The position numbers were made by a program, and so were the translations under genes. 33,960 nt of DNA from Phycisphaerales bacterium. GTDB lineage: Bacteria > Planctomycetota > Phycisphaerae > UBA1845 > PWPN01. The first letter of the stretch is position 1, and every line of letters starts with the position of its first letter. Shown here piece by piece: positions 6,296 to 18,921 of the stretch. The stretch lies in the NCBI GenBank assembly GCA_012729595.1, contig JAAYCU010000095.1, forward strand, positions 1 through 33,960, given 5' to 3'. Below the pieces are notes generated by a model. It saw nothing but the letters and a program-made list of their open reading frames with translations, ran no database searches and was not told the origin of the DNA.

Positions 6296-7051
6296 TTATT
6301 TCAGATGGTCAGCGATGAGTATTGTCCACAGTTCGTAACCCTTACGGTTGAGGTGTAGACCATCGGCGACGAAGAGTTCGAGGCGGGGCCGTCCATCGGG
6401 ACCAAGCATGTTCGTAAAGACGTCGATGTAGCTCAGCCGTTGGTGGGCGGCGGCGTATCGGCGGATCAGCTCGTTGGCCTGTTGAAAAGCGGCCATGTGT
6501 TGTACGCGAGACGGGCTGGGTTTCAGGGAGATATAGGCTATGCGGGTCCGGGGCAGGGCTTGGCTTGCGCGGGTGACGAATTCCTTGTAGTCCTCGAATA
6601 CCTGTCCAGCGGTTCGCCCTCCGGCAATGTCATTCTCGCCGGCGTACAGTACGATCATACGTGGTCGATAAGGAATGACGATGCGGTCGAGATAGAAGGT
6701 GCAGTCGGAGATTCCCGATCCACCAAAACCACGGTGGATTACCTGTATGTCGGGGAAGTCCGCGGCCAACTCACTCCATTTGCGGATCGAGGAGCTTCCA
6801 ATGAAAAGTACCGCGTCTTGAGGCGGAGAATGACGACGGTCCTCCTCCTCGAACTCGCGTATCTGGGTTTCCCACGGGCGGCTCGATTCGAGTGCGGTAC
6901 AGGAACCGGCGGTCTCTCGGGCGGACGAACACGCCAGGGAAAGAGTCAGCAGGCCCAGTAGGCCAAGGCTATAACGGCCCGCTACTTTCCACCCCGAGTG
7001 AATATGCCAGGGGCGTGAGATTCTTGTCTGGTTCGTTTTTTCTTGATCCAT
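6296..7051 (-). CDS. SGNH/GDSL-type hydrolase lipoprotein
   Basis: A 251-residue putative lipoprotein esterase. Residues ~27-41 are hydrophobic and end in a lipobox with Cys41 (LSLAC). SGNH blocks are visible: GSSS (85-88) with the nucleophile Ser, GFGGS (108-112) as the Gly block, GEND (138-141) as the Asn block, and D230/H233 (DGLHL) as the rest of the triad. Family members remove acetyl groups or other esters from sugars, which would suit pectin or xylan deacetylation; this is inference. The first 70 bases overlap the 3' end of polX in another frame. No better start was found inside the hydrophobic segment, so the gene is probably translated by coupling to polX. A weak GGAG lies about 17 nt upstream. 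Confidence 0.82.
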   Translation of the reverse strand: MDQEKTNQTRISRPWHIHSGWKVAGRYSLGLLGLLTLSLACSSARETAGSCTALESSRPWETQIREFEEEDRRHSPPQDAVLFIGSSSIRKWSELAADFPDIQVIHRGFGGSGISDCTFYLDRIVIPYRPRMIVLYAGENDIAGGRTAGQVFEDYKEFVTRASQALPRTRIAYISLKPSPSRVQHMAAFQQANELIRRYAAAHQRLSYIDVFTNMLGPDGRPRLELFVADGLHLNRKGYELWTILIADHLK

Positions 7052-8751
7052 GTCTTTAACTCTGTCTCCGTCAGAGTATTGAGCACCTGTGTTTTCGTGG
7101 CCCAGCCACGGCGGGCGGTCTGGATGCCGAAGTGCATCTGGTCGAGTTGCTGGACCTCATGGCTGTCGGTGGCGATAACGATCCGACAGCCGGCCTCGAC
7201 AGCTGTGCGTACATGAACGTCCTTGAGGTCTAGCCGCTGCCAGGAACAGTTCAGTTCCAAGGCGGTGCCGCATCGGGCGGCGGTTTCGATAATTTTTTCC
7301 CAGTCGAGGTCCATCGCGTCACGGGCGCCGATCAGACGTCCAGATGGGTGGCCGAGGGTGCAGACGTAGGGGTTTTCCAGGGCGGCGAGGCTACGCTTGG
7401 TGACCCGGTCACGGTTCTGCTGCATACCCGCGTGGATACTGGCGACGACGTAATCGAGTTGGGCAAGGATGTTATCGGGATAATCAAGCGATCCGTCGGA
7501 AAGAATGTCGCACTCGACGCCGGCCAGGAGAGTAAGACCTTTAAGCGTTTTGTTGAGGTTATGGATGGCCTCGACATGTTCGAGCAGACGTTCGATGGAC
7601 AGCCCGTTGGCGATAATCGAGCTTTTGGAATGGTTGGTGATGGCCAGGTAGCTGTAACCACGTTGTCTGGCCGCCTCAGCCAGCTCCTCAATCGAGTTTC
7701 GACCATCGCTATCGGTGGTATGTACATGCAGGTCGCCGCGGATATCGTCGATGGTCACCAGATCGGGAAGCTTTCCTTCTGCCTCGATCTCGCCGCGGTC
7801 CTCGCGCACTTCCGGTGGTATGGGCGAGAATCCGAGCTTCCTGTAAATATCCTCCTCGCTAATCCCGGCCAGGGATTTATCGCCGTCGAACAGGCCGTAT
7901 TCGTTAAGCCGCCAGCCTTTCTTAACGGCCAGCTCGCGCAGGCGGATGTTGTGTTGTTTGGAGCCGGTGAAATACTGCCAGGCAGCCCCGAAAGATTCCT
8001 GAGGAACGACACGCAGATCGACTTGAATATCCCCACCGCGTGGGTTGGTTACCAGGATCGACCCTTTGGTCTCGCCGGCAGCGAGAACCTGATTGACTTC
8101 GGGCATGGCGGAGAAGGCTTGAATGGTCGCTTCTCCGTCGTCAGCCTCGCAGAGCATGTCAATATCGCCGATGGTTTCACACCCCCGGCGGAGCGACCCA
8201 GCGAATTCGACGCGTTTTACGCCGTTAAATCCGGCAATAGTTTCACGGAGAGCATGAGCGATGATCCAAGCCATGCCGATCGGCGTGCGTCCGGCGGAGC
8301 GGGCCAGGAAATCCATGCCCTCAATAATGTTATGTGTACTCTTCGGGCCAAACCCGGCCAGTTTTTCGACCTTGCCCGCCTCGATGGCCGCCCGCAGTTG
8401 CTCGATGTTCTTGACGCCAAGCTCCTGATAGAGTGCCCGAACTTTCTTGGGGCCCAGCCCGGGGATTTGCAATAATTGCGGCAGGCGGGGGGGCACCTGA
8501 GCGAGTAGTTCCTGATGCAAAGTGATGTGGCCTTCCTCAAGGAACTGGCGGATGCGTTCGGCCGTACCCTTGCCGATGCCGGGAATCTTTTGAAGTTCTT
8601 TACGTTTGGCGATGTCGGTGAGATTCTCGGTCAAGTCATCGATGGTCCGGGCCGCCCGGCGATAGGAATTGATGCGAAATAGATCGCCGCCGGTAATCTC
8701 CATCAGGTCGGCGATTTCATCGAATATTCGGGCCAGTGCCTGATTTACCAT
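6982..8751 (-). CDS. polX: DNA polymerase X family with PHP domain
   Basis: A 589-residue bacterial PolX for gap-filling DNA repair with 3'-5' exonuclease capacity. The N-terminal 8-kDa-like region contains helix-hairpin-helix motifs IPGIGKG (~56) and IPGLGPKK (~96), and a third at LAGFGPKS (~131). The nucleotidyltransferase palm has GSLRRG (185-190), GDID with D196 and D198, and the third Asp in IQVDLRV (D245). The C-terminal PHP domain shows LHVH (341-344), TNH (372-374), VEC (412-414), SIH (438-440), LGHP and ATDSHE as metal ligands. All active-site residues look intact. The start at 8751 has AAGG about 10 nt upstream and fits the usual length; a longer frame to 8862 adds residues not typical of the family. 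It overlaps the SGNH gene by 70 nt and diverges from lpxD. Confidence 0.95.
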
Positions 8752-11423: not shown

Positions 11424-12257
11424 AAGACGGCTGCGACAGGTTTTACTACGAATCTCTATGCCACCGAGGGCAGCTCGGCGTCCGGGGTACAGGTCGCTGA
11501 ATCCTCTCTGTGACTGGGGTGAAGTCAAGGGTACCTCAATCAGCATAGAGCGGCGTAGCAAAGAACCACCAGGACGACGATCTTGATCTTTCGGGCGAAG
11601 AAATCGGTGACTACGATATACATCGGATTTCCCCTCGTGTTGCGTTGAACCTCCAACCACGATTATCCCTGGTCCCCAATCAGTTACTTGCAGGGGTAAT
11701 GCCGATCCGACAAGGGCGGAATTAAGATTTAGGATGTGTGTAAGTCATGATAGTTAAGTGGTTTAGAAAGCAGATGAATAAGTGTTAAAATGGGCGAGAA
11801 ATGCTGGTTGCGCGGGATGTTGGTTTTGGACTACTTAACGATAGTCCGAATATGGGTCCGGTGTGTACAAGTCATTGACAGCAAGCAATTAACAGAGGGA
11901 GTCCGTAGGTAGCGGTGCTTCGCGAAGAAACACATTGGTTTTTTCGCGGTGGGTTTGGCCGAACGGACCGTGACTGGGTGAATATGCAAATGTCTCCAGC
12001 CTTAGTGTGTTTTGTCTATCCTGACACCTGAAGTGCAATCAATTCCGTTTGTCGTTTCTGAATTCGAAACTTCCAAATTCTTTCGAGATCGGCCCAGAGG
12101 GTAAGGCCGCCCTTACCTGAGTGTTTACTTGATTATGATGTCGGGTGGTTCTGGTATTCAGACTCAGGTCCAGGTCATGGAAACCCCATCATCGTAGTCT
12201 GGGAGGATCGCACTTAATATGCCTTTGGGAAGCCCGATAATTCAAAGGAGTACTGTC
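11407..12257. other. 851-bp gene-poor region with hairpins
   Basis: No long gene is supported. The minus strand has a 27-codon small-protein candidate at 11540-11623. On the plus strand a hairpin at 11921-11948 has a 10-bp stem (CGCGAAGAAA with TTTTTTCGCG, one G-U) and an 8-nt loop, so in this orientation its 3' arm begins with a T-run. A second perfect hairpin, GGTAAGG-CCGC-CCTTACC, is at 12100-12117. These could belong to a non-coding RNA or the leader of the large gene at 12258. No known RNA family was recognised. Confidence 0.4.
11540..11623 (-). CDS. Candidate 27-residue membrane microprotein
   Basis: A short open frame starts at an ATG preceded by GAGGGG with 7-nt spacing, one of the better ribosome sites in the window. 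The product has a short charged N-terminal part (MYIVVTDFFARKIK) followed by a hydrophobic stretch (IVVLVVLCYAALC), as in single-span membrane peptides. It stands alone, antisense to nothing annotated, in a long intergenic gap. It might be a small membrane protein or a type I toxin-like peptide, or chance. There is no homology evidence. Confidence 0.38.
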   Translation of the reverse strand: MYIVVTDFFARKIKIVVLVVLCYAALC

Positions 12258-14717
12258 ATGATCGGCAAGAACACAATCACAAGTTGTCTGTTACTGGTGG
12301 TCAGCCTGTCGTCATTTGTAAATACGGCTTATGGTGATGAACAGGATGGAATGGTGGATTCCGTGTCGAGGGTTGATCAAGGTAGCGATTATACGTTCAT
12401 GTGGTGGGCTCATGGTTGGCGCGGAGAGCGGGTTCGTTGCGTGCAGACGAACACCTATGGCCTGGCCATGGATGTTCAGACAGTGGCCGTGACCCATTTT
12501 GGAGAAATCAACAATCCTCTACCCTATGTTCAGGCGGTCTCCCAGGGTAACGAGGTAATCTTCAATCTGCCGCCCGCGAAACTTGAGCTTATTGTTGAAG
12601 TCGGTCGGGATAAGTACACCTGTGTTTCCGGCAGGCACCCCCGGATGGTCGAGAGTGGGCGGTTTCTGCAGCGAGGCGATATTGAAGACTTGGTATTCCA
12701 GGATAGCGCAGGAACGCCCTTGCCAGCCGGTGGTCGCCTGGAAATCATCGCTTGGCCGGATCGACTTGCTTTTCTGCTGGAAATCGTGCCTCGCGAGGAT
12801 TTGTCGAACTGTCGGGCGGTCATCCGGTTTTCCGCAGGGGATCGGGTGGTCGAACAGGTTGGCATCGTTGGCAACTGGCCGGGGAACGCATCGCAGGCGG
12901 TACATGCCGTCGTTTTTCCAGGAACACCGGAAACGGCTCCCTCCAAGGATCTGGTGCAGGCTTTCGAGGCGCAAAGCGGAAAAGCTGTGCCCGTGGTTTA
13001 CGATCCGGTTCGCGGCTGGCATGGAATCACGATGCCCGATCGCCGTATCAAGAGGATTCCCAGCAAGGCTTATCTGGATCGTATCCACCTGCGTTTGAAT
13101 AACCCGGGAGGAACGCCTAAGGTTGTGCGGCTCATGCTGGCTGACGGGGATGGGGTTCCCGGTATAACCGGTGTAGTGCCGATGCTCAGGGACATGCAGG
13201 GTCATCCTACCGGTCTTGACGTACAGGTATCGAAAAACTGGCATCGTAAAGAAACGGCCCCCACGCTCTATGATGGCTTATGGTTACGCGCCTTGACGCA
13301 TATCAGGCTAGCTCCGCAAGCGGTTGTTGACCTGGAGTATGGCCGCGCGATCAATAAGTGGGGCAAGGTTCCACTGGCCTCGCATGCGCAACTCTGCCTT
13401 ATCGGTTGGGGAACGGACCAACTCTGGGACCAGGCCGCCATCGGCAGTTGGGGGGAGAGTATCTGTTATGATCCTGATATATGCCTTAATCGCTCGATGA
13501 TCGACGACATGCGCCCGCTGATGGTCACGGCCATGAATAGTAAAGACGGTAAGTGGACCTGGACCAATAATGTCGGGGGCGGCGATTTTCTTGTATATGT
13601 CGGGACAGATGGCCAGAGGCGTTTTCTGAGTCGCATGCGTACGGCCTATCTCAGTCACGGCCCGAATCTTACGGAGGTCGTGTATTCCGGGATCAGCAGT
13701 GACGGACACATTAATGCCACCATGCGAGTAATGACTCCGCGTTGTGACGATCTCAACCGAGCTTATCACTATTTTCGCTATGATGTAGTCAAGCCCACAC
13801 CGTTCAGTCGGTTGGCTTTTTATCAGGTCGGGGCCGACAAGTACAATGATCATCAATTTCGCAAGCTAGCTCGAGGAGACGAGACCGGGCTGCTCGAGGA
13901 GTGGCCGGCACCGCAGGGTGGCCTTACATACCACCGAGAGGGGATCTCATGTGGGGGCAAGGTGCCGTGGTTCTCGTTGCATGAGGGGATCAGCAAAGAC
14001 GAAGAAGGCGGAGCTTGGGCCAACCGCGGCTTGGTAATTCGTTACTGGCAAGCCCGACTTGCCGGACGGGAGGCGCCGCCGGTGGCCGCCTGTTACGGTA
14101 CCGAGGATAAAAGAAGTAACAAGCAGGGGCCGGACAGTTGTAATATCGAGCTTACGGCCCCGTCGGACGTGACACTACTGCAGCCCGGAGATTATGTCGA
14201 GGCCTGGGTGGAGTTGCTGGTATTGCCCCAATTCGCGAAAGACTACTATGGCCCCAACAAGGGGCTACGGAAGGATCTGGAAGCCAACGAAAACACCTGG
14301 AAACCTGTTTTTCGCCAGGCGGTGGGTAATGATATGCAGATCGTTGTGAAAAAGGGCCGACTTCTGCGGGCCTATCCACCGCATGTCGAGGTTGACGCGT
14401 CAGGTAATGCGGAACTCAGCCTGACCGGCGGGCTCGGTTATGTTCCACTCACCTTTGCCGGACTCGATGATTATCGTGGCGGAGAACTGGCCATGCTGGG
14501 CGAGGACGGAGCATGGTCGGTGATCGATCAATCATCAGGGTACCGTAACGATTTCTGGCAGATCGGTAGGGACGAGTCCGGCAAATACGCGATCACCTTC
14601 AACGTCGATCTGGACGCCCCAGAGAGGCTTGCGCGCAAGCCGAGGGTATTCCGCTATTCCCGGGTGGCAACGCGTTCGACTTCCTCGATGCTGGTCAAGC
14701 CTTCGAGTACTTTTTGA
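12258..14717 (+). CDS. Large exported protein of unknown function
   Basis: An 819-residue protein. The start at 12258 has AAAGGAG at 12244-12250, 7 nt upstream; an ATG at 12219 is less likely. Residues ~1-27 form a signal peptide (core CLLLVVSLSSFV, cut near TAYG). The mature chain is Trp/Tyr-rich and mostly beta in pattern, like carbohydrate-active or sugar-binding secreted proteins, for example FMWWAHGWRG (~47), WHGITMPDRR and AFYQVGADKYND. I do not recognise the family and see no clear catalytic motif. The last 21 codons overlap the 3' end of the convergent FHA-GspE gene by 64 bases, so the tail (RYSRVATRSTSS...) is probably constrained by the opposite gene and may be an extension. Confidence 0.75.
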   Translation: MIGKNTITSCLLLVVSLSSFVNTAYGDEQDGMVDSVSRVDQGSDYTFMWWAHGWRGERVRCVQTNTYGLAMDVQTVAVTHFGEINNPLPYVQAVSQGNEVIFNLPPAKLELIVEVGRDKYTCVSGRHPRMVESGRFLQRGDIEDLVFQDSAGTPLPAGGRLEIIAWPDRLAFLLEIVPREDLSNCRAVIRFSAGDRVVEQVGIVGNWPGNASQAVHAVVFPGTPETAPSKDLVQAFEAQSGKAVPVVYDPVRGWHGITMPDRRIKRIPSKAYLDRIHLRLNNPGGTPKVVRLMLADGDGVPGITGVVPMLRDMQGHPTGLDVQVSKNWHRKETAPTLYDGLWLRALTHIRLAPQAVVDLEYGRAINKWGKVPLASHAQLCLIGWGTDQLWDQAAIGSWGESICYDPDICLNRSMIDDMRPLMVTAMNSKDGKWTWTNNVGGGDFLVYVGTDGQRRFLSRMRTAYLSHGPNLTEVVYSGISSDGHINATMRVMTPRCDDLNRAYHYFRYDVVKPTPFSRLAFYQVGADKYNDHQFRKLARGDETGLLEEWPAPQGGLTYHREGISCGGKVPWFSLHEGISKDEEGGAWANRGLVIRYWQARLAGREAPPVAACYGTEDKRSNKQGPDSCNIELTAPSDVTLLQPGDYVEAWVELLVLPQFAKDYYGPNKGLRKDLEANENTWKPVFRQAVGNDMQIVVKKGRLLRAYPPHVEVDASGNAELSLTGGLGYVPLTFAGLDDYRGGELAMLGEDGAWSVIDQSSGYRNDFWQIGRDESGKYAITFNVDLDAPERLARKPRVFRYSRVATRSTSSMLVKPSSTF

Positions 14718-16375
14718 TAGCCGCTTTCCAGCAGGGTTTGGAAGGACCACTCGCCGGCGGCCTCGCGTATGTCCTTGATCGTAGTGGTGGTGATCAGGGC
14801 ATCGCGCAACTTATCGTTGAAACTGAGCAGCTCGAATATGGCTGCTCGGCCCCAGAAGCCGACCCCCATGCAGCGCTGGCAGCCAGTGGGGGCGTATAGC
14901 GTCGGCAGGGTGCGGGCGTCGATACGCATGCGGGCGACCTGGCTGGGTTTTGGTTTATAGGCTTTTTTACACTCACCGCAGAGCATACGTATTAGTCGCT
15001 GGGCCAGGCACATGGAGACGGCGTTGGCGATCATGTAATTTTCAACGCCGAGATCCAGAAGCCGATAGATCGATCCGATAGTGTCTCGGGCGTGGAGGGT
15101 GGAAAATACCAGGTGGCCGGTCATGGCTGCCTGCAGGGCGGTCTGGGCTGTGTCGCGGTCGCGCATCTCGCCGACCAGAATCACGTCGGGATCCTGACGC
15201 AGCACGGATTTCAAAATCGGGGCGAAATCCAGCCCCTTTTTGGTATTGACCTGAATCTGAGTGATGCCGGCCAAATGGTACTCGATAGGATCCTCGATGG
15301 TGACCACATTGCGCGAGCGGGCGTCGATGGTTCGCAGGGCGGTATAGAGCGTGGTGGTTTTTCCGCTTCCGGTAGGCCCGCTGACGATAATCATGCCGGC
15401 GTCCATTTTGCACAGGGAGGTTACGGGCTTAAGCATGTTGCGGGGCATCCCGAGCTTATCCAGTCGGGTAGGCAGGGTGGCCGAGTCGAGTACGCGGATC
15501 ACCAGTTTCTCCCCGTGCATGGATGGGGTAAGAGACACTCGGTTATCGACGCGGCGGTTGCATGCGACTACGAAGCTTCCATCCTGGATGCCCTGGCGTC
15601 CGGCGATATCTAGTTCTGAAAGGATTTTGACTACGCCGAGCAGGGCTCGCCCGATCTGCTCTGGCAACAGGACGACGGAGATCATTTTTCCGTCCACGCG
15701 GAATCGGACCTGGCAGCCGTCCTCGACCGGGTCGAAGTGCAGGTCGGTGGCCCTGGTACGGAACGCACCGTAGTAAAGCAATCGCAGGGTGCGAACGGCC
15801 TCGGAGGAGCTGTCGTCCGTGTTGCTGGTGTGTACAGGTTTGCCCTGGTGGTCGAAAAGGGCGACCTGTTCCAGGCCGAACCCGGGATCCTCTCCGGCGG
15901 ATCGGAGGCTGTTCAAGTCTCGCCGGGCTTTGGCCAGGATTTCCTCCTGGGAGACGCTGATCTTTTCGACAAGGGGCTCCTCTTCCTCTTCGGCTTCGGC
16001 GACCAGGGCCTCGAGAGCCTCAGCTTCTTCGTCGTCGCCTATTTCCTCGAGAGTTGTTTCCCCGGAGTCGAGGATTTCAATATCCGGGGCGGTGTGTTCG
16101 AAGACGCGGAGGACGGTTTTGCCGACAGTAAAGGTTTCCCCGTAATTGAGCTGAGCTTCCTTGACGGGCTTGCCCTTGATACCCGTGCCGTTCCGCGAGC
16201 CAAGATCGCGGAGAATGAACCCTCCATTGATCGGTTCGAGTGCGCAGTGCTTTCGGCTGGCCAGCTTGTCATCCAGGACCACGTCGTTGTCTCCAGCCCG
16301 GCCGATGACCGCCTTGCCAGAGGGCAGGGTGACCACTTTCGCTCCCTGTTCGTTCAAAATCTGAATTACCGCCAT
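14654..16375 (-). CDS. FHA domain fused to GspE/PilB-type secretion ATPase
   Basis: A 573-residue cytoplasmic protein. Residues ~1-93 form a forkhead-associated domain (IGRAGDND ~25, SRKH ~40, LGSRNGT ~58-64), which binds phosphothreonine peptides. A very acidic linker follows (~97-135, runs of Glu). The ATPase of the type II secretion/type IV pilus family has Walker A GPTGSGKTT (333-341), the Asp box IEDPIEY (~360), Walker B VILVGEMRD (~398-406), the His box STLHARDT (~425-432) and a four-Cys zinc site (C466, C469, C499, C502). All core motifs are present. The FHA domain stands where GspE proteins usually carry their N-terminal platform-binding domain. The start at 16375 has GAGG upstream. 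A lipoprotein gene precedes it by 39 bp, and PilZ genes diverge nearby. Confidence 0.95.
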   Translation of the reverse strand: MAVIQILNEQGAKVVTLPSGKAVIGRAGDNDVVLDDKLASRKHCALEPINGGFILRDLGSRNGTGIKGKPVKEAQLNYGETFTVGKTVLRVFEHTAPDIEILDSGETTLEEIGDDEEAEALEALVAEAEEEEEPLVEKISVSQEEILAKARRDLNSLRSAGEDPGFGLEQVALFDHQGKPVHTSNTDDSSSEAVRTLRLLYYGAFRTRATDLHFDPVEDGCQVRFRVDGKMISVVLLPEQIGRALLGVVKILSELDIAGRQGIQDGSFVVACNRRVDNRVSLTPSMHGEKLVIRVLDSATLPTRLDKLGMPRNMLKPVTSLCKMDAGMIIVSGPTGSGKTTTLYTALRTIDARSRNVVTIEDPIEYHLAGITQIQVNTKKGLDFAPILKSVLRQDPDVILVGEMRDRDTAQTALQAAMTGHLVFSTLHARDTIGSIYRLLDLGVENYMIANAVSMCLAQRLIRMLCGECKKAYKPKPSQVARMRIDARTLPTLYAPTGCQRCMGVGFWGRAAIFELLSFNDKLRDALITTTTIKDIREAAGEWSFQTLLESGYQKVLEGLTSIEEVERVATRE

Positions 16376-16414
16376 GCTGATTACCTCGGCTGTTGCGCCC
16401 CCCGACAAATGCGG

Positions 16415-17137
16415 TCATGGAGCAGGTTGTGTGATCTCCTTTTGTTCGGAGCAGAAACTCAGGTTGATCTTGAGGTCATTAACCTCAAGACGGGCCGAGG
16501 CCTCTTGTCCGGCGGCGCTTTGGGCCTCAACTTTTCCCGTCAGAATAATGTCGTAGCGAAGTTTCGGTTCTAACGAAACGGAAAGCTTACGGTGGTCGAG
16601 CAGTTCGGCCGATGCCTGAATCTGGTCGCTGTCGGTTTTGAGTGCCGGGATTGTGGCCAGGATTTTACCCTTGGCATCCAGAACCAATATCTGGAGGTCG
16701 GCCCGCGCGATCGTGTCGGCTGTCGGGTCGGTGGACGTATGCAGGGCATGCTGCCATCGGCAATCGAGTTCGACGGACAGGTTCTGGAAATAGTCGGTCT
16801 GGTTGGCAATACGGTGGCCGATGGTGAACTCCGCCAAAGCCGACCCGCCGTTGGCGGCCTCCACGGAACAACTGGCTCGGCCTGCAGCGGTAGCGTCTGA
16901 ATGGCCCTGGGCGGTACCGTCGAGCCCCGGATTCTGGTTGCTGCGCTTAGTATGAATATTGAACGGTTGATCCATCGGCAGGCTTACTTTTATGGGACGT
17001 TCCGATGGGTCGTCGAGAATGTACTGTCGGTCGAGGGGGACGCGGATCTGGAGAGAAGAGCGGTTGTCCTGGCAACCGCAGAGCATGCAACTCGCGGACA
17101 GAACGACAATGGTGACTTTTCGAGGGACGGGAACCAT
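16415..17137 (-). CDS. Lipoprotein of unknown function upstream of FHA-GspE
   Basis: A 240-residue putative lipoprotein. Residues 1-21 are a lipoprotein signal (VTIVVLSASCMLC) with lipobox Cys22 (LCGC). The mature part is alternating polar/hydrophobic and looks beta-rich (for example LSVELDCRWQHAL, KLSVSLEPKLRYDIILTG), ending in a domain with ARLEVNDLKINLSF. No family is recognised. GGAGG lies 9 nt before the ATG. It is followed after 39 bp by the FHA-GspE gene on the same strand, so the two are likely co-transcribed, and it could be an envelope partner (pilotin-like or assembly protein) of that system. That role is inference from position only. Confidence 0.8.
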   Translation of the reverse strand: MVPVPRKVTIVVLSASCMLCGCQDNRSSLQIRVPLDRQYILDDPSERPIKVSLPMDQPFNIHTKRSNQNPGLDGTAQGHSDATAAGRASCSVEAANGGSALAEFTIGHRIANQTDYFQNLSVELDCRWQHALHTSTDPTADTIARADLQILVLDAKGKILATIPALKTDSDQIQASAELLDHRKLSVSLEPKLRYDIILTGKVEAQSAAGQEASARLEVNDLKINLSFCSEQKEITQPAP

Positions 17138-17259
17138 AAATGGAGTCCTCCAATAATCGTAAAGCCTAGCCGGAAATGCCCTGAGTCATCCGCAACAAGT
17201 TAACACCCCCGACGGGAAATGTAAACCGGGTGCGTTTCGGGCAGATATTGGCACGTAGG

Positions 17260-17271
17260 GTTTAATTAAAC
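17260..17271. promoter_or_regulatory. Perfect 12-bp palindrome between divergent genes
   Basis: GTTTAATTAAAC is perfectly symmetric and lies in the 220-bp space between the lipoprotein/FHA-GspE operon (minus) and the PilZ gene (plus). Its position fits an operator controlling both. The regulator is unknown, and AT-rich palindromes also arise by chance. Confidence 0.3.
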
Positions 17272-17357
17272 GGAATGTAGTCAACTCGCGATTTCTTACG
17301 GCCGATCTGAAATGTATCGTACTCAGCCGGGGATTGTATCCTACCGAGGATCCTGTT

Positions 17358-17801
17358 TTGATCACCGAGCACAATAAGCAACTGTTGGATTCACTGTTGA
17401 ACGAATTGGACTGTCTTGCGGCGCGACAGTCGTCGCAAGAGGCTGGCGGCAAGGCGGACGAGAGGCGTTGCCGGCGTCAGCCATTCCGGGTCAATAGCAA
17501 GGTTCGATTATTCAGTCCTGATCAGCATGAGATTCTGGAAATTGCCGGCCGAACTCGGAACCTCTCCCGCGGCGGATTTGCCTTTGTGTCACGGCGTTTG
17601 TTTACTATTCAGGATCCTGTTGAGCTGGAGATAGCATTGCCCGGCAGGCCGATCACCTACATCACTGGCGCAGTCCGTTTTTGCCGTTATGTCGCCAAGG
17701 GGTATTACGAGACGGGGGCCGAGATGATAGTCATGGCCCACCGATCGCATCTGGCCGGGCAAATACATAAGTTGTCCATTGCCCCGGTCATTATATCCTG
17801 A
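17358..17801 (+). CDS. Single-domain PilZ protein, c-di-GMP receptor
   Basis: About 147 residues when started at TTG 17358, which has GAGGA at 17345-17349 with 8-nt spacing. A TTG at 17334 would add eight residues but lacks a spaced ribosome site. A short helical N-terminus (KQLLDSLLNELDCLAA) precedes the PilZ domain. The two c-di-GMP signatures are visible: the Arg-rich RRCRRQPFR and the NLSRGG loop of type (D/N)xSxxG. The barrel continues through ITGAVRFCRYV to GAEMIVM. It probably reports c-di-GMP to the adjacent secretion or pilus machinery, or to motility. It diverges from the FHA-GspE operon. Confidence 0.88.
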   Translation: MITEHNKQLLDSLLNELDCLAARQSSQEAGGKADERRCRRQPFRVNSKVRLFSPDQHEILEIAGRTRNLSRGGFAFVSRRLFTIQDPVELEIALPGRPITYITGAVRFCRYVAKGYYETGAEMIVMAHRSHLAGQIHKLSIAPVIIS

Positions 17802-17979
17802 TGAATCCGTACCGTTGATCCTGGCCCGATAATCCCTTCGCTGAGTCAAGCGGGTCGGCGTCGGCATCCAAAAACGATGGCCCACTCCAGTTCTGCGTTG
17901 CTTTTCCGTATTTTCAATCGTAAGAACCCTGTAGGCTTCCGTGGATTAGTATTGTTCCTCGGTTGTAAGGGGATCTTAT

Positions 17980-18921
17980 ATGCCAGTACAGACAAGCAAG
18001 AAGTATTTGCCCGACCTCAATGAGCTTCTGGATAGAATCGACGAGGTTGACGAAGTGGTGCGGGACCGTTGGCTAGGCAAGCGAACGTCGCCGCGTTATG
18101 CCTTGAATATACCTGTGGTTATTCAGGTCTTGACCGATAACCGCGTTGGTCCACCGGTGGAATACCCGCTACGCGACATATCCGATAACGGAATCTGTTT
18201 TATCTCGAAAATTAACATCTGCCATGGAACCTGGCTCCGTGCTCAAATCGAGGTAAACGAAGCCTGTTGGTCTGGCAATTTGTGCGTGGCCCATTGCACC
18301 GAGACGGTAGGGGGGTTCAAGGTTGGGGCGGATCAGGCGGGACCGCTGGGCAGGAAAATAACGTCCGACCCGTCGCACGAAATCACCTCTTCTATCCAGT
18401 CGCGTCTGCGGGAGATGGAGTCGTTGAAAGCCATCGCCGAGGAAATACAGACTGTTATCCGGGCCTATGATATCGCTCGCCTGTCCTGGGGTTTGTTGGG
18501 AACGTCGCTGAAGAAGAAGATACTCTCTATTGTCCGTGATTTGCCGCCGGTTGCGGACGCTCCCGTGGAACAATGCCGACGTAAACATCCGCGGAAAGTG
18601 ATGTGCGGATGCGCCCAGTTGATTGTGAAAACGAATTACGGGCGAAAGCGAATCGACGCCAAAATCATAAATGTATCAGAAGGCGGGGGGTGTCTGCAGG
18701 TTAGAAACAGTGCTTTGGAAGATCCGATCGAGCGGAAGATGGCTGGCGATCTGTTAATCCAGCCCGAGACGACGCTGATGCTCGGTATCGGCGGGCCGGA
18801 CGAGATGCTGTGGATCCCCGCGGAAATCCGACGTATGCAGAAGCTCGATAAGAAAGAAACCGAGATAGGTATCCAATTTGTCACCGATAAATCGCTATCG
18901 AGTCTAAAAGGTCATATCTGA
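17980..18921 (+). CDS. Tandem PilZ-domain protein
   Basis: A 313-residue protein with AAGGGG about 8 nt before its ATG. The first PilZ domain spans ~33-120, with KRTSPR (R35, R39) and DISDNG (67-72). A helical middle (~136-190) may link or dimerise. The second PilZ domain spans ~199-303, with CRRKHPRK (R200, R201, R205) and NVSEGG (231-236). Both domains keep the Arg motif and the (D/N)xSxxG loop, so both could bind c-di-GMP. It lies 178 bp after the single-PilZ gene on the same strand. Its target is unknown; the neighbouring FHA-GspE is the obvious candidate. Confidence 0.88.
   Translation: MPVQTSKKYLPDLNELLDRIDEVDEVVRDRWLGKRTSPRYALNIPVVIQVLTDNRVGPPVEYPLRDISDNGICFISKINICHGTWLRAQIEVNEACWSGNLCVAHCTETVGGFKVGADQAGPLGRKITSDPSHEITSSIQSRLREMESLKAIAEEIQTVIRAYDIARLSWGLLGTSLKKKILSIVRDLPPVADAPVEQCRRKHPRKVMCGCAQLIVKTNYGRKRIDAKIINVSEGGGCLQVRNSALEDPIERKMAGDLLIQPETTLMLGIGGPDEMLWIPAEIRRMQKLDKKETEIGIQFVTDKSLSSLKGHI

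Follow-up and report, generated by a model that had tools for sequence, protein, structure and literature searches.

A putative FHA-gated GspE/PilB-type motor ATPase and its genomic surroundings in a Phycisphaerales bacterium

The FHA-GspE locus

The subject of this study is a window of 33,960 nucleotides (assembly GCA_012729595.1, contig JAAYCU010000095.1, positions 1 to 33,960) of a Phycisphaerales bacterium (Planctomycetota; Phycisphaerae; UBA1845; PWPN01), and in particular a gene, here named FHA-GspE, whose predicted product joins an FHA domain through an acidic linker to a hexameric motor ATPase of the GspE/PilB type. The open reading frame (ORF) listed for this gene spans positions 14654-16408, with the ATG at 16375 as its natural start. 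The gene is accompanied by a lipoprotein gene and two divergent genes encoding PilZ proteins (Table 1). Genomes, contigs, loci and families are given below by our own numbers (G, C, L and f, respectively), the family of the host being f1.

Table 1. Features of the FHA-GspE locus (coordinates refer to the window).
Feature	Position	Strand	Remarks
FHA-GspE (FHA, acidic linker, GspE/PilB-type hexameric motor ATPase)	14654..16375	(-)	573 aa, ATG start
T2SSE core of FHA-GspE	14672..15796	(-)	Pfam PF00437 3.4e-110, residues 193-567
Linker of FHA-GspE, acidic, weakly conserved	15803..16105	(-)	coordinates from translation
FHA domain of FHA-GspE	16121..16309	(-)	Pfam PF00498 7.8e-16, residues 22-84
Lipoprotein	16415..17137	(-)	240 aa, LCGC lipobox; order-wide single-copy family; family-specific neighbour
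Palindrome GTTTAATTAAAC	17260..17271	.	perfect 12 bp; between divergent arms; chance level
PilZ1, one PilZ domain, RxxxR and NxSxxG	17334..17801	(+)	PF07238 3.1e-8; divergent neighbour
PilZ2, two PilZ domains	17980..18921	(+)	PF07238 1.4e-10, two stretches

Domain structure of FHA-GspE

All catalytic motifs were found in the ATPase, namely Walker A (GPTGSGKT), EDPIEY, the Walker B region (DVILVGEMRD) and TGHLVFSTLHA, and the core thus has the Walker A, Asp box, Walker B and His box features of T2SSE members. It also carries both zinc CxxC pairs of the GspE/PilB C-terminal domain, and in an alignment of 20 orthologs (from f1 and family f7) their cysteines (C466, C469, C499 and C502) were invariant, as were the Walker A glycines and lysine. 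The best NCBIfam matches were GspE (8.5e-129) and PilB (2.5e-123), with TadA reaching only 1.6e-12; the scores lie below the equivalog cut-offs (430 against 630 bits for GspE, 413 against 676 bits for PilB). GspE, PilB and PilT chains were matched by the ortholog profile in the PDB, with 25 distinct sequences reaching E<=1e-20. None of the best stretches listed started before profile position 154, which leaves the FHA part uncovered.

The N-terminus differs from that of common assembly ATPases. MshEN (PF05157) was not among the Pfam matches of FHA-GspE at E<=0.1, and the FHA domain occupies the N1/MshEN position, while three other ATPases of the same genome do carry MshEN. Searched alone against solved structures, the FHA part matched FHA domains, the best being that of Rv1747 (1.1e-13). 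Seven of its residues (G25, R26, S40, R41, H43, N62 and G63) were invariant in the same 20 orthologs, and the conserved Arg, Ser, His and Asn-Gly among them are presumably the phosphothreonine-contacting face of the domain. An earlier, sequence-only reading of this DNA had proposed that an FHA domain stands in place of the usual GspE N-domain, followed by an acidic linker and a complete set of catalytic motifs, and these proposals are confirmed; the loss of phosphopeptide-binding residues, which it had named as a possible objection, was not observed. Judged from these motifs and profiles, FHA-GspE is predicted to be an ATPase of the GspE/PilB branch in which an FHA domain of the phosphopeptide-binding type replaces the usual MshEN/N1 domain.

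Distribution and phylogeny

Among the 61 genomes of the order, which were searched first, full-length or contig-cut FHA-GspE was present in 22, i.e. in 9 of the 13 f1 genomes and 13 of the 14 f7 genomes. A survey of the class yielded matches at E<=1e-101 in 118 of 397 genomes, 71 of which extend into the FHA part by our own row count; at five class loci (L234, L238, L240, L249 and L250) an FHA pattern was present although the BLAST match ended before it. At the phylum level 59 of 392 genomes gave matches, those of other classes being mostly to the ATPase core only, and a search for relatives in named genomes returned mostly FHA domains of unrelated proteins.

A tree was built from 94 T2SSE domains (matches with 300 or more aligned residues, taken from the loci fetched in the survey). 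All 47 FHA-bearing rows fell within a single branch of 49 rows with a support of 100/100. Of the two remaining rows, one (L241) is a fragment at a contig edge and the other (L247) an ortholog in which GYF_2 replaces FHA. As all FHA rows share one branch that includes the GYF_2-bearing ortholog, the fusion is old and its N-terminal slot exchangeable; that it forms a single, class-wide clade is well supported by the tree. The L247 gene lies at 6756-8747 (genome G686), and ORFs resembling the FHA part occur within the same 15 kb.

A candidate phospho-switch and the proposed mode of action

FHA domains can favour pThr-x-x-D (pThr, phosphothreonine), and proteins of the GarA/OdhI type use an internal pThr as an intramolecular switch. 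The linker of FHA-GspE, the disorder of which was judged from composition, contains an ETT motif (Thr107/Thr108) followed by an acidic residue at +3. Of 10 f1 loci, 8 retain a threonine in this column, and 7 of these have D or E at +3; T-x-D was found in all 7 linkers extracted from the 9 f24 loci. Linkers were extracted by pattern, which dropped 1 of 13 f7, 2 of 9 f24, 4 of 5 f10 and 3 of 4 f22 loci, and f10 and f22 were left unjudged. The arrangement can be likened to GarA/OdhI, in which an FHA protein carries its pThr beyond the domain (the solved structure of Rv1827 with pThr22 was among the PDB matches); in contrast to FHA-GspE, GarA/OdhI has no ATPase, and the FHA-GspE switch is a motif only. 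As a lead, this suggests that the linker threonine may act as an intramolecular phospho-switch. Potential kinases are available, as the genome gave 12 matches to protein kinases (PF00069), 9 of them above the cut-off.

We therefore consider it somewhat probable that FHA-GspE is an FHA-gated motor of a type IV filament machine that answers to a kinase instead of cyclic di-GMP (c-di-GMP), given the domain order, the intact FHA and catalytic residues, the class-wide clade, the kinases in the genome and the family-limited neighbours (see below). In such a mechanism the FHA domain, held on a flexible acidic linker in place of MshEN/N1, would make the motor responsive to a Ser/Thr kinase and not to c-di-GMP. 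The threonine phosphorylated by a Hanks-type kinase would lie in the linker itself (Thr107/Thr108) or in a partner at the base of the machine, and its binding by the FHA domain would dock, free or hold back the hexamer. Phosphopeptide binding, the linker switch, the machine driven and the direction of control are all what we infer.

Several observations weigh against this proposal. The linkers of families f7 and f13 have no conserved threonine. FHA-GspE was found in none of the 34 genomes of six other families of the order and is hence dispensable; even within f1 the ATPase is gone from one genome (G002), and another (G006) keeps an FHA fragment only. Each platform of the host genome already has a likely ATPase, and the T2SSF platform gene occurs in none of the 47 FHA loci, so that FHA-GspE is linked to a filament machine by homology only.

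Motors and machines of the host genome

The inventory of the host genome comprises (i) a pilus-type system on contig C265, with a platform protein, two MshEN ATPases and one PilT, (ii) on C399 a platform together with type II genes F, G and K, a PilM/L-like protein and a giant Secretin_N protein, (iii) two platform proteins and a 407-aa ATPase on C72, and (iv) two platform proteins of the Tad type on C226. The third MshEN ATPase lies at the end of contig C268. A close relative of it is located directly beside gspF in genome G048, and the C268 ATPase is therefore probably the motor of the C399 type II system. This weakens the idea that FHA-GspE is the missing GspE of that system, a role that the C268 protein probably fills. 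The ORF following the type II genes on C399 (L305, 5754-13145) is open-ended, encodes 2463 aa and contains 15 Secretin_N stretches; usual secretins have fewer.

The presence of core systems with MshEN ATPases also allows FHA-GspE to be seen as a spare, conditional extension motor for the host's own pilus (C265) or type II system (C399), using the same platforms as the MshEN ATPases, with pThr and c-di-GMP selecting between the motors. Two extension motors are reported to act on one pilus in Acinetobacter baylyi (PMC8213720), and in genome G044 (L109, 614-8952) FHA-GspE and a PilT gene lie directly upstream of, and on the same strand as, a GspE-PilT-PilB run. The G044 arrangement is the sole such case seen, however, and the absence of T2SSF from the 47 FHA loci counts here as well, so that we regard this explanation as rather unlikely.

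The PilT-mGspE-CvpA cluster

A further candidate partner is a class-wide cluster, [HisF]-PilT-mGspE-CvpA (L123, L178-L197, L261-L300), in which the GspE-type protein (mGspE) is anchored to the membrane and the CvpA protein is large. The host carries it on contig C270 (L123, 1257-6294), with neither FHA-GspE nor another intact assembly ATPase beside it, and no pilin, platform or secretin was seen beside this copy. The Walker A lysine is missing from mGspE in all 26 loci of the order and from every one of the 40 mGspE genes at 40 further loci of the class, and mGspE is thus predicted to be a pseudo-ATPase; in the four loci of other classes the cluster ATPase is intact (4/4). None of the papers listed by literature searches on the PilT/CvpA cluster dealt with it.

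In family f7 the two systems meet. Of 14 fetched loci, 12 have a PilT-like gene close upstream of FHA-GspE on the same strand (2.1 kb off in G029), the exceptions being G047 and a contig-end fragment of G053, and in 5 of the 14 mGspE and the large CvpA gene follow FHA-GspE. Together with the want of another intact assembly ATPase beside the C270 cluster and the missing lysine of mGspE, this would fit a role of FHA-GspE as the catalytic partner of the cluster, supplying kinase-controlled, assembly-type ATP hydrolysis in place of that of the dead mGspE. Yet PilT, mGspE or CvpA was near FHA-GspE in no fetched locus outside f7, and the degeneracy of mGspE does not follow the presence of FHA-GspE, being equally advanced in families that showed no FHA-GspE. 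The decay is therefore older than, or independent of, the presence of FHA-GspE, and a strict link, with the rise of FHA-GspE as the cause of the mGspE decay, was rejected. The tree, moreover, groups FHA-GspE closer to canonical GspE/PilB (88/92, not starred) than to the cluster ATPases that are intact in other classes, and descent from the latter is not supported. The cluster is a possible, though unproved, partner, and a catalytic role of FHA-GspE in it seems unlikely. Still less probable is the fuller picture in which PilT, FHA-GspE, the dead membrane-anchored GspE and the large CvpA protein would form one pilin-free, kinase-gated envelope machine of the class, with FHA-GspE providing its power stroke under the control of the linker phospho-switch.

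Lipoprotein and PilZ neighbours

The gap between the end of the lipoprotein gene and the ATG of FHA-GspE is only 39 bp. The lipoprotein matched no Pfam family; its single-sequence model was beta-rich with a predicted local distance difference test score (pLDDT) of 54, Foldseek matches to this model reached a template modelling (TM) score of at most 0.34 among those listed, and its profile found only E-values of 0.35 and 0.36 in the PDB; the Foldseek matches were not taken to point to a function. The GC of the lipobox is shared by those orthologs that cover the site. Its gene is directly upstream of FHA-GspE in 6 of the 9 f1 carriers (G000, G003, G004, G008, G011 and G012), on a separate contig in G005 and was not found in G007 and G010 (the latter 55% complete). 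G006 has no more than an FHA fragment after the lipoprotein gene, close to a run of N, and an assembly fault is therefore possible. Across the order the lipoprotein is a single-copy gene of 49 of 61 genomes. Of the 34 genomes that belong to families lacking FHA-GspE, 27 have it, and it adjoins ligA in f4 and nadD in f7 (gene names from sequence reading).

The host genome gave 7 PilZ matches. All three PilZ domains of the window have the c-di-GMP motifs RxxxR and [DN]xSxxG; the structure model of PilZ2 is of very low confidence (pLDDT 32). PilZ1 is divergently adjacent to the FHA-GspE arm in 4 of the 9 f1 carriers (G000, G004, G007 and G012), and matches to PilZ2 were found in 6 of the 13 genomes of the family including the host, the others all unlinked and the best of them from a genome devoid of FHA-GspE (G009). 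In relatives an M20 peptidase gene (named from sequence) follows FHA-GspE. In G002 (L199, 5154-9001) two PilZ1 genes diverge from the lipoprotein gene, which runs directly into the M20 peptidase gene with no ATPase in between. Outside f1, a lipoprotein or PilZ1 neighbour was present in no fetched FHA-GspE locus, a check that is weak for class loci L236, L249 and L253, where the gene caller missed the ATPase. The lipoprotein and PilZ genes are local, family-limited company of FHA-GspE and not parts of it.

These data bear on the central proposal of the sequence-only reading, i.e. that FHA-GspE could make up, with the lipoprotein and the three PilZ domains, one secretion or pilus motor receiving two signals, pThr and c-di-GMP. 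The genes themselves, a lipoprotein beside the ATPase and divergent single-PilZ and tandem-PilZ genes, are where it had placed them, and the short gap, the adjacencies within f1 and the c-di-GMP motifs of PilZ1 speak for such a module. A fixed, obligate module is nevertheless not supported, as it was not seen outside the family, many lipoproteins occur in families lacking FHA-GspE, and the lipoprotein and two PilZ1 genes persist in G002; the poor conservation of the neighbours in relatives, which that reading had itself named as grounds for rejection, was largely what the survey found. Dual signalling fares no better, as PilZ2 homologs are unlinked and FHA-GspE has no ND0/ND1, the parts of PilB that bind PilZ. 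We consider this explanation highly improbable.

The palindrome between the divergent arms is real, but the window contains 8 perfect palindromes of 12 bp in all. Within 2 mismatches, GTTTAATTAAAC was found once against 0.57 expected (42 of 100 shuffles had at least one), and its TTAATTAA core was missing at the equivalent place in 7 loci of the family. As an operator it thus showed nothing beyond chance and no conserved core. The remark that no other secretion gene lies nearby was correct for the window proteins scanned. The end of FHA-GspE overlaps convergently, by 64 bp, the 3' end of an 832-aa ORF (12219-14717), the product of which looks secreted and matched no Pfam or NCBIfam family.

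Comparison with known systems and significance

The searched literature (FHA with GspE, PilB, MshE and traffic ATPases; titles, abstract openings and top-ranked results) contained no FHA-GspE/PilB fusion. A close architecture is that of CpaF class III, consisting of FHA, a disordered region and CpaF, a Tad pilus motor mostly of betaproteobacteria (PMC12019362). Both share an N-terminal FHA domain, a disordered linker and a hexameric ATPase of the secretion superfamily; CpaF belongs to the CpaF/TadA branch and to Tad systems, whereas FHA-GspE is assigned to the GspE/PilB branch and no Tad genes adjoin it. Likewise, KilF of the Tad-like Kil system of Myxococcus is a central ATPase with an N-terminal FHA domain and a proposed signalling role (PMC8460266). 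KilF resembles FHA-GspE in this fusion, but it is Tad-like and belongs to a dedicated gene set, whereas FHA-GspE is isolated from core genes. FHA-fused CpaF and KilF show that the combination of an FHA domain with a motor is a usable one.

With ATPases of the MshE/PilB/XpsE type FHA-GspE shares N2 and the C-terminal core, the zinc CxxC pairs and a signal-receiving N-terminal domain, which in those proteins is a c-di-GMP-binding MshEN and in FHA-GspE an FHA domain, MshEN being undetected. An assembly ATPase and a PilZ protein also occur together in the PilB-PilZ-FimX complex of Xanthomonas citri, where a PilZ protein that does not bind c-di-GMP grips ND0/ND1 of PilB through a solved interface (PMC8389850). 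FHA-GspE differs in having no ND0/ND1, and the PilZ domains of the window differ in retaining c-di-GMP motifs.

The neighbour survey corrects the earlier view of a module, with the lipoprotein and PilZ genes as local company of the ATPase. Motors of type IV filaments are known to receive c-di-GMP via MshEN. If the proposed reading is true, a class-wide lineage of GspE/PilB ATPases with an FHA domain in that position would imply direct gating of the motor by Ser/Thr kinases.

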